This document shows, piece after piece, positions 227 to 41,697 of a stretch of 64,000 bases of DNA. The notes below the pieces were generated by a model that saw only the letters and a program-made list of their open reading frames with translations, searched no databases and was not told where the DNA came from. The translations under genes and the position numbers were made by a program. The stretch is from Trueperaceae bacterium (GTDB taxonomy: Bacteria > Deinococcota > Deinococci > Deinococcales > Trueperaceae), in assembly GCA_023954415.1 (NCBI GenBank), contig JAMLIB010000005.1:1-64000 (forward strand). Direction: 5' to 3'. Positions within the stretch are counted from its first letter, which is position 1. Every line of letters starts with the position of its first letter.

Positions 227-1666
227 TCAGCGCAGCGCCGACCGGAGGAGGTGAAGGCTAGTGAAAGCGGACCGTTCTCGTTGCCATGGCCCACCAAGCG
301 GTGGCAGGTCCAGGGTCTTGACGGAGGTTCCGCTCGCAGTGGCTATCGCGATGACCACACGTGTGATCGTTCGGTCGTCTCCTACCGGTTTGGCGCCGGG
401 CACCGCCGGCAGGACGCCTGGCGGCCCCGATCGGGGCGCCTCCTCGGCCTGCATGCGCGTAAGCTTCCCAACGCCGGGTTCAGCGATTGACGCGTCGTTC
501 GAGGCGGCCAGCACGGGGACGCAAGGTCCGAGGTTGGCGACGCCAAGGTCCGCCTTGAAGAACGCCCTGACTGCGGCGGCCAGTGCGGCCACTACCTCGA
601 CCGCCCCGTAAGGCAGCTTCTGCAGTAGTCCGAGGGGTACGCCGAGCGCTCTCATGGTTTCCGAGTCGCATGTTATCACGCTGCCACTGACTGCCCCGAA
701 CCGCGGAGCCGCCTGTTCCGGAGAGGCCGGCCTGCCGTTCAAGGTCTTGGGACGGCCGAGCTGGTCGACACCGTCGTCCGCTCCGACCAAGTAGCCGGTC
801 AAGACGCCGCCGGTGCTCCCCTCCGCGATGGCGAGCCGCTGCCCGCGTTCACGTAGGGCAGAGACGACGAGGCGCGGCAGGTCGTCGGAGTCGGTGCCCC
901 AGACGCTGTCGCCGAGCCTGGCGGCGACCCTCTCGACCGTGGGTCGCGCGAGCGCGGCCGCCCCGTCGAGGTCGTCGGCCTTGGCGGCCACGCGCACGTG
1001 AACGCCGTCGGCCTTCGCGTAGGTCGCGACGCTGGGGTTCGCCTGGTCGGTGAGCTCCCCGAGCGTCTCCGCCACGAGCGACTCGCCGATGCCGATCGTC
1101 TTGAACGTGCGCACGAACAGCTTGCTGCCTGGCAGCGGCAGGCGGGGGAGGGCTTCCTGGAGCCACATGCGCTCCAGCTCGCGGGGCGGACCGGGCAGTG
1201 TGACGATGTAACGCTCCCTGCCGCCCCTGGTGAGGCGCACCAACCAACCGGGCGCCGTCCCTACCGGGTTGGGAAGGACCTCCGACGAGGCGATGACGTG
1301 CGCCTGCCTGAGGTTGGACTCGGGCATGGGCCGGTCGTTGGCGGCGAAGCGTCGCCGCAGCCACGCCTCGATCTCCGGATCGATGGTCTGGGGCTCGCCG
1401 ACTACCGCGGCGATGGCCTCCCGGGTGAGATCGTCGTCGGTGGGGCCGAGTCCGCCGGTCAACACCACGAGGTCGCTGCGTTCCAGGGCGGCGTCGAGCG
1501 CAGCCATGATCCGCGCCTGGTTGTCGCCGACGCGTTGCGACCAGTAGACATCGACGCCCACTTCCGCCAGGTCGGCGGCGACGCGGGCGCTGTTCGTGTC
1601 GACGACCTCGCCGAGGAGCAGCTCCGTGCCGACGGCGATCACTTCCGCGCTTCTCACGCTGTTCAT
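227..1666 (-). CDS. cinA: CinA-family protein with divergent C-terminal amidase domain
   Basis: CinA normally joins an N-terminal MoCF-like domain (ADP-ribose/NMN metabolism) to a C-terminal NMN deamidase domain. The 479-aa product starts MNSVRSAEVIAVGTELLLGE, and residues 1 to about 250 look intact (GTELLLG, TGGLGPTDDDLTREA). The C-terminal half is abnormal. The usual ESCTGG reads EGSTGG, the Tyr/Lys segment is replaced, and the GIAGP loop is replaced by a longer unrelated stretch, so deamidase activity is doubtful. The ATG at 1666 is chosen because TATCCT lies 5 nt upstream, typical of leaderless genes. An extension further upstream to 1954 is rejected as non-homologous. The gene precedes recA. 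Confidence 0.85.
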   Translation of the reverse strand: MNSVRSAEVIAVGTELLLGEVVDTNSARVAADLAEVGVDVYWSQRVGDNQARIMAALDAALERSDLVVLTGGLGPTDDDLTREAIAAVVGEPQTIDPEIEAWLRRRFAANDRPMPESNLRQAHVIASSEVLPNPVGTAPGWLVRLTRGGRERYIVTLPGPPRELERMWLQEALPRLPLPGSKLFVRTFKTIGIGESLVAETLGELTDQANPSVATYAKADGVHVRVAAKADDLDGAAALARPTVERVAARLGDSVWGTDSDDLPRLVVSALRERGQRLAIAEGSTGGVLTGYLVGADDGVDQLGRPKTLNGRPASPEQAAPRFGAVSGSVITCDSETMRALGVPLGLLQKLPYGAVEVVAALAAAVRAFFKADLGVANLGPCVPVLAASNDASIAEPGVGKLTRMQAEEAPRSGPPGVLPAVPGAKPVGDDRTITRVVIAIATASGTSVKTLDLPPLGGPWQRERSAFTSLHLLRSALR

Positions 1667-1702: not shown

Positions 1703-1732
1703 ATGACATACGAAAGCGGGATGGTGTAGAAT
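1703..1732 (+). promoter_or_regulatory. Sigma-70-type promoter for a candidate small RNA
   Basis: ATGACA (1703-1708) and TAGAAT (1727-1732) are separated by 18 bp, a close match to the -35/-10 consensus. No open reading frame with a ribosome site follows. A hairpin terminator starts about 65 nt downstream. Confidence 0.55.
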
Positions 1733-1737
1733 CCGTT

Positions 1738-1832
1738 CGGTTCCTTCCCCCCGGGAACCAGGGAGAGGGCTTCGTGCCCTCCACCATCTCCTCTCTTTGA
1801 CCCTGCGCCCCCCACGCAGGGTCAATCCTTTT
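1738..1832 (+). ncRNA. Candidate structured small RNA of about 95 nt
   Basis: This stretch lies between the divergent cinA and moxR genes and has its own promoter (1703-1732) and terminator (1797-1832). It can fold into a GGTTCC/GGAACC hairpin near 1739-1759 and a GAGGGC-TTCG-type hairpin near 1765-1782, ahead of the terminator stem. It lacks the conserved signal recognition particle RNA loop and is too short for 6S RNA, so no known family is assigned. It could also be an abortive leader of the downstream gene, although moxR has its own -10 box. Confidence 0.45.
1797..1832 (+). terminator. Rho-independent terminator
   Basis: An 11-bp perfect stem (1797-1807 with 1815-1825) encloses a 7-nt C-rich loop and is followed by TCCTTTT. 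This is one of the few hairpins in the window with a real T-tract. Confidence 0.75.
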
Positions 1833-1977: not shown

Positions 1978-1983
1978 TAGCAT
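1978..1983 (+). promoter_or_regulatory. -10 box of leaderless moxR (TAGCAT)
   Basis: TAGCAT ends 5 nt before the ATG at 1989 and there is no ribosome site. This supports that start over a longer one at 1797. Confidence 0.5.
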
Positions 1984-1988
1984 TGGCC

Positions 1989-3494
1989 ATGACGATTTCT
2001 CGGGCAGCAAGAAGCGCGTCCAGCACGCATAAGGAGCGCCCCAAGACCCTCGGCGAGCTGCGCGGGACCCGCTGGGAGGCCTCGGCGGGCCGGAGCGTTC
2101 GGGACGAGATCCGCTCCAACCTCGTAGTGGCCTTGCAGCGCCGAGATCCCCTGTTCCACGGGGTAGTCGGCTACGGGGAGACGGTCGTGCCGGCCGTGGT
2201 CAACGCGCTGCTCAGCCGTCACAACTTCATCCTTCTCGGGCTGAGGGGGCAGGCTAAGACCCGCATACTGCGCCAACTCGTCACGCTCCTCGACGAGGAG
2301 GTGCCGTACCTGGAGGGCACGGAGCTGCACGATGACCCCTTCGCGCCCCTGACGGCGGAGGGTCGTGGGCTGGTGGCCGAGCTTGGCGAGGAGGCGCCGA
2401 TAGGGTGGTTGCCCCGCGAGCAGCGCTACGTCGAGAAGCTCGCCACGCCGGATACCACGGTGGCCGACATCGTCGGCGACATCGACCCCATCAAGGCCGC
2501 CAGGCTGGGCACGAGGCTGGGGGACGAGCGTGCGGTGCACTTCGGGCTCCTGCCGCGCGCCAACCGGGGCATCTTCGCCATCAACGAACTGCCGGACCTG
2601 GCGGGCAAGGTGCAGGTGGCGCTCTTCAACGTCATGCAGGAGGGCGACGTCCAGATCAAGGGTTACCCTATGCGCCTCCCGCTCGACGTGCTGTTGGTGT
2701 TCAGCGCCAACCCGGAGGACTACACGGCGCGGGGCAAGATCATCACGCCCCTCAAGGACCGCATCGGCAGCGAGGTGCGCACGCACTACCCGCAGCGAGT
2801 CGAGGAGGGCATGGCCATCACGCGCCAGGAGGCCTGGACGGACCGCGCGGAGGGCGTCTTCGTTCCGGCGTTCGTGGCGGAGGCAGTCGAGGAGGTCGCC
2901 TTCCAGGCCCGCTCGGACGCCCGCGTCGACAAGCATTCGGGCGTGTCGCAGCGCCTGCCGATCAGCCTCCTCGAGAACGTGGTGAGCAACGCCGAGCGCA
3001 GGGCGCTCGCGCACGGCGGTCAAGGCGTCGCCCGCATCTCCGACCTGTACGCGGCCCTGCCTGCCGTCACGGGCAAGATCGAGCTGGAGTACGAAGGCGA
3101 GTTGAAGGGGGCGGAGAGCGTCGCGAGGGAGATCGTCAGACGGGCCATCGGTCAAGTGTTCGGGCGGCGCGGGTCAGAGCTCGATACGGCGACCATCGTC
3201 GAGTACTTCGACGCCGGCAACAGCCTGCGGCTCCCAGGCGACCTGCCGAGCAGCGACTGGCGGGCACCCCTCGCCGAGGTCCCCGACCTGCTGACGGTCG
3301 CGGCGGAGCTGGCGGCGGCCACGAGCCGCGACGCCGGCGGGGTGGAGACAGCGGTCTCGGACGAGCTCCCGCTCGTGAGCGCCGAGTTCATCCTCGAGGG
3401 CCTATACGCGCGGCGCCAGATCGGGCGGAGCGAGGAGCTCGGCTACACGGCCGGGGAGGCAGCCCAGCCCGGCTCGCGGCCCCGGTGGAACTGA
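1989..3494 (+). CDS. MoxR/magnesium-chelatase-like AAA+ ATPase
   Basis: A 501-aa AAA+ ATPase of the MoxR/ChlI type. These proteins usually work as chaperones or remodelling partners of VWA-domain proteins. The P-loop is GLRGQAKT at residues 84-91, and a Walker B-like FAINEL segment has its acidic residue at about 200. The [20 protein letters not shown] segment resembles the sensor and arginine-finger region. The partner VWA gene follows 58 nt downstream on the same strand, so the two very likely form one operon and one complex. The substrate cannot be inferred. Confidence 0.85.
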
Positions 3495-25073: not shown

Positions 25074-25102
25074 TTGACAGGCCCTGTGGCGCGCCGTAGA
25101 GT
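25074..25102 (+). promoter_or_regulatory. Promoter of the cobalamin-transport operon
   Basis: A perfect TTGACA (25074-25079), a 17-bp spacer and TAGAGT (25097-25102) precede the riboswitch, placing the transcript start near 25109. Confidence 0.7.
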
Positions 25103-25107
25103 TCCCT

Positions 25108-25207
25108 TGGTCGCCGCTCGGGGAAGTCCGGTGAGAGTCCGGCACTGTCCCGCAACGGTAAGGGCGCGCTAGAGCGCCCAAGTCCGAACACCGGCCGGTC
25201 GACCTCT
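25108..25207 (+). promoter_or_regulatory. Cobalamin riboswitch
   Basis: The region contains the B12-box and core signatures GGGGAAGTCCGGTGAGAGTC, GCACTGTCCCGCAACGGTAA and AAGTCCGAACACCGG in the correct order, closed by a GGTCG/CGACC P1 stem. It sits between the promoter and btuF. About 110 nt of GC-rich expression platform follow to the start codon, so cobalamin binding should reduce importer expression. Confidence 0.93.
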
Positions 25208-25321
25208 ACTTGACCCCTTGCGCGGACGAGGGAGGTCGGTGCGCCTCCGAGCACGGTCGGCGCGGCTGTCCCTCTTGTCATGACGACACCTCTGAACCGC
25301 AGGGCGGAAGGAAGCGACACC

Positions 25322-41220: not shown

Positions 41221-41296
<76 letters not shown>

Positions 41297-41341
41297 CTGT
41301 CCTGAGCGAAGGGAAGCGCCTCGAGACCTCGGCTATGACGC

Positions 41342-41426
41342 GGGTAGGTGCCCGAGTGGTTAAAGGGGACGGACTGTAAATCCGTTGGCTTAGCCTACGC
41401 TGGTTCGAATCCAGCCCTGCCCACCA
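41342..41426 (+). tRNA. tRNA-Tyr (anticodon GTA)
   Basis: An 85-nt class II tRNA with a long variable arm, acceptor stem GGGTAGG/CCTGCCC (one G-T pair), anticodon loop CTGTAAA and T arm GGTTCGAATCC. The CCA end is encoded. Confidence 0.95.
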
Positions 41427-41477
41427 GCCGTGCGGTCACGACCGGGGCGAGCCTTCGGGAGTGGCCCGGTCGCGAAC

Positions 41478-41553
<76 letters not shown>

Positions 41554-41622
41554 GCGCACCGCCTCGTGCCGCCCGGCGCGAGGAGCGAGGCGAGGTAGTG
41601 AACGGCCGCGGGGCCGTGGTGG

Positions 41623-41697
<75 letters not shown>

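Follow-up and report, generated by a model that had tools for sequence, protein, structure and literature searches.

A probable stand-alone small RNA gene with an anti-Shine-Dalgarno-like seed between cinA and moxR in Trueperaceae

The window analysed here, a stretch of 64,000 nucleotides from the Trueperaceae genome designated G000, carries the divergently oriented genes cinA and moxR, the latter encoding a MoxR/chelatase-type AAA ATPase, and, between them, a compact unit on the plus strand that lies outside both genes (Table 1). An earlier note, made from the sequence alone, had proposed that this unit is a small RNA gene, consisting of a near-consensus promoter, two hairpins and a stem-plus-T-tract terminator without an open reading frame (ORF), and all of these elements were recovered. 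The note's statement that both flanking genes possess their own -10 boxes likewise held, with the -10-like boxes TGCTAGCAT before moxR and TATCCT before cinA. Because cinA and moxR are divergent, a terminator located between them can only end a transcript that was begun between them. At the cut-offs applied, the only Rfam matches in the window were tRNAs and an adenosylcobalamin (AdoCbl) riboswitch, all away from the RNA unit.

Table 1. Coordinates of the features in the window and of the paralogues linked to the ribosomal protein S1 gene
Feature	Position	Strand	Details
cinA	227-1666	-	TIGR00200, 249 bits against a cut-off of 243; outside the RNA
Sigma-70-like promoter	1703-1732	+	-35 ATGACA, 18-nt spacer, extended -10 TG-TAGAAT
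5′ hairpin	1739-1759	+	GGUUCCU-UCCCCCC-GGGAACC, C6 loop; folding and compensatory changes
Second hairpin	1761-1785	+	Inner stem GAGGGC/GCCCUC, 1765-1770 with 1776-1781; folding
Exposed seed	1782-1796	+	CACCAUCUCCUCUCU; conservation and predicted unpaired state
Intrinsic terminator	1797-1832	+	11-bp stem UUGACCCUGCG/CGCAGGGUCAA, loop CCCCCCA, tail UCCUUUU
moxR	1978-3494	+	MoxR/chelatase-type AAA ATPase gene; own promoter box TGCTAGCAT; outside the RNA
AdoCbl (cobalamin) riboswitch	25096-25241	+	RF01482, 60.9 bits; upstream of an ORF resembling a periplasmic binding protein
Four clustered tRNA genes	41221-41694	+
S1-linked group B paralogues	L074:1240-1528, L070:1501-1577, L086:966-1040, L087:926-996, L088:985-1058

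The promoter is the sole sigma-70-like site within the first 6 kb of the window (0.3 expected from shuffles), and most cinA/moxR-linked copies in related genomes retain a TG-TANNNT -10 element at the same position, with a less conserved -35 element. The predicted 5′ end of the RNA falls near 1738-1741, and the terminator stem, spanning 1797-1825, is followed directly by TCCTTTT. The segment 1736-1832 has a minimum free energy of -45.8 kcal/mol compared with a shuffled mean of -27.9 (z = -5.86; none of 200 shuffles as low), a surplus that comes mostly from the terminator, which alone yields a z-score of -7.5 as against -2.8 for the two upstream hairpins alone. No plausible plus-strand ORF starts inside the unit, and relatives carry insertions and deletions in the loop of hairpin 2 and in the seed whose lengths are not multiples of three, so that coding on either strand is rejected.

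The distribution of the unit was examined in 39 genomes of the family and in 72 genomes of other Deinococcota. In a DNA search of 61 relatives, it was present in genomes of the same genus and the same family. A covariance model of the core (R1) matched 24 of the 39 family genomes and, outside the family, a single further genome of the order, weakly (E = 0.008). A wider model (R2), built from 46 matches and applied at E ≤ 0.001, recovered 59 members in 28 of the 39 Trueperaceae genomes and none in the 72 other Deinococcota genomes. A pattern scan of 84,980 species identified carriers titled Trueperaceae, Truepera or Deinococcota MAGs, along with four isolated matches in other phyla, all lacking a terminator, which look like chance occurrences.

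Comparison among these copies argues for a conserved structure. In the alignment fitted to the model, a procedure that favours such a result, 14 of 15 core pairs show compensatory changes, and the covariation score of this model-fitted alignment is 0.50, compared with 0.20 after shuffling and at most 0.16 in slid registers. Compensatory changes affect all five modelled pairs of the second hairpin and nine of the ten modelled pairs of the terminator, and the 5′ hairpin stem varies in a compensatory manner among GGUUCC/GGAACC, GUUUAG/CUAAAC and GAUUGG/CCAAUC. From an unfitted alignment (A3), only the terminator stem was recovered, with compensatory changes, and hairpin 2, whose loop length varies, was not. 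The folds of 15 copies of the cinA/moxR-linked type (group A) or similar to it share the order 5′ hairpin, second hairpin, open seed and C-loop terminator; the copy in G007 is a clear exception, with a seed predicted to be mostly paired and a weak terminator. Among congeners, sequence identity with the window copy is highest over 1779-1796 (0.99) and in the terminator (0.97), followed by hairpin 1 (0.88) and the start region of cinA (0.87); it falls to 0.63 in the promoter region and to 0.43 in the spacer beyond the terminator. The earlier note had named a covariance search of relatives as a check, and its outcome, hairpins conserved with compensatory changes, went in the note's favour. Having its own promoter, a conserved structure, its own intrinsic terminator and no ORF, the unit is almost certainly a stand-alone intergenic small RNA (sRNA) gene of about 93 nt (about 1739-1832, plus strand) that represents an undescribed family.

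The position of the RNA also raises the question of whether it could be a cis-acting leader or attenuator of moxR, given that 13 Trueperaceae genomes have it ahead of moxR, in the orientation of that gene and with a terminator at its end. This arrangement notwithstanding, genomes without the RNA retain moxR with the same TGCTAG-type or TGCTAGCAT-type box by its start (for example, loci L101, L103, L104, L107, L109, L111, L112, L114 and L116-L119), and the RNA is therefore not considered to be the moxR leader. In G013, the RNA adjoins cinA while moxR is located elsewhere, and paralogues precede unrelated genes. An antiterminator, sought by comparing the sequences of the copies, is not conserved: the fold in which CAGGGAGAGG pairs with CCUCUCU/CCCUG is feasible only in some members of genus g1. 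The spacer from the terminator to the moxR promoter is not conserved either. The presence or absence of the RNA is independent of moxR, which indicates, indirectly, that moxR does not depend on transcription through the element, as it would on a leader. A role as moxR leader is thus extremely improbable, in agreement with the earlier note's view that the unit is not needed as one. The moxR upstream regions of many family members (for example, L099, L102, L103, L110, L113 and L115) share a conserved ACACATA motif, possibly a regulator site, about 20 nt ahead of the TGCTAGCAT box.

Beyond the cinA-moxR locus, dispersed paralogues, which the earlier note had missed, were assigned to two further groups. 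Copies scattered in G006 and G022 make up group C; they share the CCAUCUCCUCUCU seed and end in a C-loop terminator. Group B is distinguished by GAGGUAA..UUACCUC, CCCAUCCUCUUCC and a CCUCCC loop. Both are probably homologous to group A, the link of group B being less certain because its members were first found by weak, largely terminator-driven scores. In G001, G002, G009, G010 and G013, group B copies sit about 90-250 nt upstream of the gene for ribosomal protein S1 (Table 1), whose identity was tested on the G001 protein and assigned in the other four genomes by the shared N-terminus; the S1 protein there has an unusual Ala/Pro-rich N-terminal extension. These copies are possibly an S1-linked regulatory RNA or leader. 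In several g11/g14 genomes, group B instead precedes a gene that by eye looks like serA. TGTAAG-N5-TGTAAG, or a sequence close to it, occurs in many promoters of group B and in a few of group A. In the upstream regions L053, L054, L074, L080, L087 and L089, this direct repeat lies at about the -35 position. Its spacing is typical of OmpR/PhoB-type regulators, and the repeat resembles an operator of the OmpR/PhoB/WalR type. The group B copy of G000 itself (L073:1246-1323, contig C14) is found in the vicinity of a gene encoding a Rep3 initiator domain and may therefore be located on a plasmid.

Multiple copies would also be expected of a dispersed repeat or a mobile terminator-like palindrome devoid of regulatory function, and G006 has eight to nine dispersed copies, G014 has three clustered ones and G010 has tandem partial copies. 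In G010, these are two degenerate units of about 80 bp arranged in tandem behind the intact RNA gene (L008:1350-1530); they retain the C-loop and the 3′ terminator arm and have lost the seed. Most genomes, however, contain only one to three copies, the copy between cinA and moxR is a syntenic orthologue, and no match was found in the viral contigs searched. Moreover, the stems have diverged while the unpaired seed has been kept, the reverse of what is seen in decaying repeats, which leaves an inert repeat as a very improbable explanation.

Comparison with 4227 Rfam families, including SRP RNA and 6S RNA, which the earlier note had already set aside, produced no match to the unit at the gathering cut-off, and a literature search found no paper on sRNAs of Truepera or Trueperaceae. 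The best weak match was to 6C RNA (RF01066), at 25.7 bits (E = 0.056 for the 108-base search) against a gathering cut-off of 47. The actinobacterial 6C RNA/B11 is similarly an intergenic RNA of about 93-100 nt with C6-loop stem-loops, the last of which is the terminator. Both C6-loop stem-loops, overlooked in the earlier note, are present in the window copy as hairpin 1 and the terminator, with an extra hairpin between them. In mycobacteria, B11/6C represses its targets via C-rich loops that pair with ribosome-binding sites (PMC10470900), and Mai et al. 2019, as cited there, state independence of RNA chaperones in their title. The RNA described here differs from 6C in having the extra hairpin, in its seed CACCAUCUCCUCUCU, which is long and exposed, in its occurrence in Trueperaceae only, and in not keeping the first-hairpin C-loop across genera: this loop is retained in nearer genera only and is missing in G006, G016 and G013.

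Further resemblances are found to the alpha-r14/cuckoo RNAs of Alphaproteobacteria (NfeR1, CcsR), which likewise combine hairpins with a conserved anti-Shine-Dalgarno motif; in alpha-r14 RNAs, the stems are variable and the motif is ultraconserved (PMC10746234). In that group, however, the motif CCUCCUCCC, absent from the window RNA, is present more than once, in unpaired parts of the hairpins, whereas the Trueperaceae RNA has a single AUCUCCUCUCU in the linker before the terminator and a host without detectable Hfq. The sX13 RNA of Xanthomonadaceae (RF02232) also has several stem-loops with C-rich loops, but its cut-off of 50 was not reached (13.0 bits in the window, 21.2 in a relative). Within the same phylum, OsiR and Dsr11 of Deinococcus radiodurans are stress-linked sRNAs (PMC7247583, PMC7022480); model R2 has no member outside Trueperaceae in the phylum. 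Overall, we regard the RNA as a new family within a known kind of regulator; it would work like 6C yet is not a member of that family by score or distribution.

The most conserved part of the RNA is the seed CACCAUCUCCUCUCU, the anti-Shine-Dalgarno segment that had escaped the earlier note. It is nearly invariant in 13 genomes of several genera, has a mean predicted unpaired probability of 0.85 in the window copy, and is predicted to be mostly single-stranded in almost every copy of the moxR-linked type. The seed is complementary to AGAGAGGAGAUGGUG and to the Shine-Dalgarno-type AGAGAGGAG(AUGGUG), and its full complement would place AUG directly behind the Shine-Dalgarno sequence, an unusual spacing. 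It also resembles the 3′ end of 16S rRNA, which reads GGATCACCTCCTTTCT in the family member G021; a search that allowed up to one mismatch did not detect such an end in G000, G001 or G019. In these three genomes, the gene may be absent, truncated or divergent at its end.

An open, anti-Shine-Dalgarno-like seed flanked by covarying hairpins suggests that translation is repressed by pairing at start regions, and the RNA is thus likely to be a trans-acting, Hfq-independent anti-Shine-Dalgarno RNA, a class assignment derived from anatomy and precedent. According to this model, the gene would yield an RNA of about 93 nt by means of a promoter and a terminator of its own, and the two hairpins together with the terminator would keep the 15-nt seed single-stranded and open. 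The probable partner of the seed is the Shine-Dalgarno/start region of selected mRNAs, where pairing would block 30S binding and lower translation, and a second contact, with G-rich sites, may come from the C6 loops in hairpin 1 and in the terminator. Such G-C-rich pairing presumably needs no Hfq, since Hfq is not detectable in these genomes: a search for PF17209 found it in none of the 39 family genomes, whereas it was detected in 5 of the 14 known genomes that served as controls.

The searches for targets came out negative. Perfect seed complements by a start codon (AGAGAGGAG-N3-10-RTG) were no commoner than reversed-pattern controls, and no recurrent orthologous seed target was found among congeners. 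Scans with AGAGAGGAGATGGTGG (up to two mismatches) and GAGGAGATGGTG gave only scattered matches that do not recur among congeners. In G000, seed-target matches precede genes that by eye resemble a DUF1778-like antitoxin and a Cas3-like HD gene.

This lack of recurrent targets would also fit an RNA that titrates a protein instead of acting on mRNAs, in which case an RNA-binding protein such as S1 or a cold-shock protein would be bound by the pyrimidine-rich seed and the C-loops. Single strands rich in pyrimidines are the preferred ligands of S1, and the related group B units lie upstream of its gene in five genomes. However, a near-invariant 15-nt seed exceeds what a generic pyrimidine tract would need, and the moxR-linked copies are not near S1, which makes protein titration unlikely compared with pairing to mRNAs. 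A broader version of the anti-Shine-Dalgarno reading, and one that is speculative and rather doubtful, is that a multi-copy, Trueperaceae-wide, Hfq-independent family is placed partly under an OmpR/PhoB-type regulator through TGTAAG-N5-TGTAAG, with one branch wired to the S1 gene, and tunes translation initiation globally under stress.

Few sRNAs of Deinococcota have been characterised, and these results give the phylum a well-supported RNA family with a conserved seed that lends itself to direct testing. The family is lineage-specific, yet appears to represent a familiar kind of regulator. It would provide a further case, beside actinobacterial 6C, of a host apparently without Hfq that uses C/U-rich anti-Shine-Dalgarno RNAs, and thereby bears on how sRNA regulation may operate without the Hfq chaperone.
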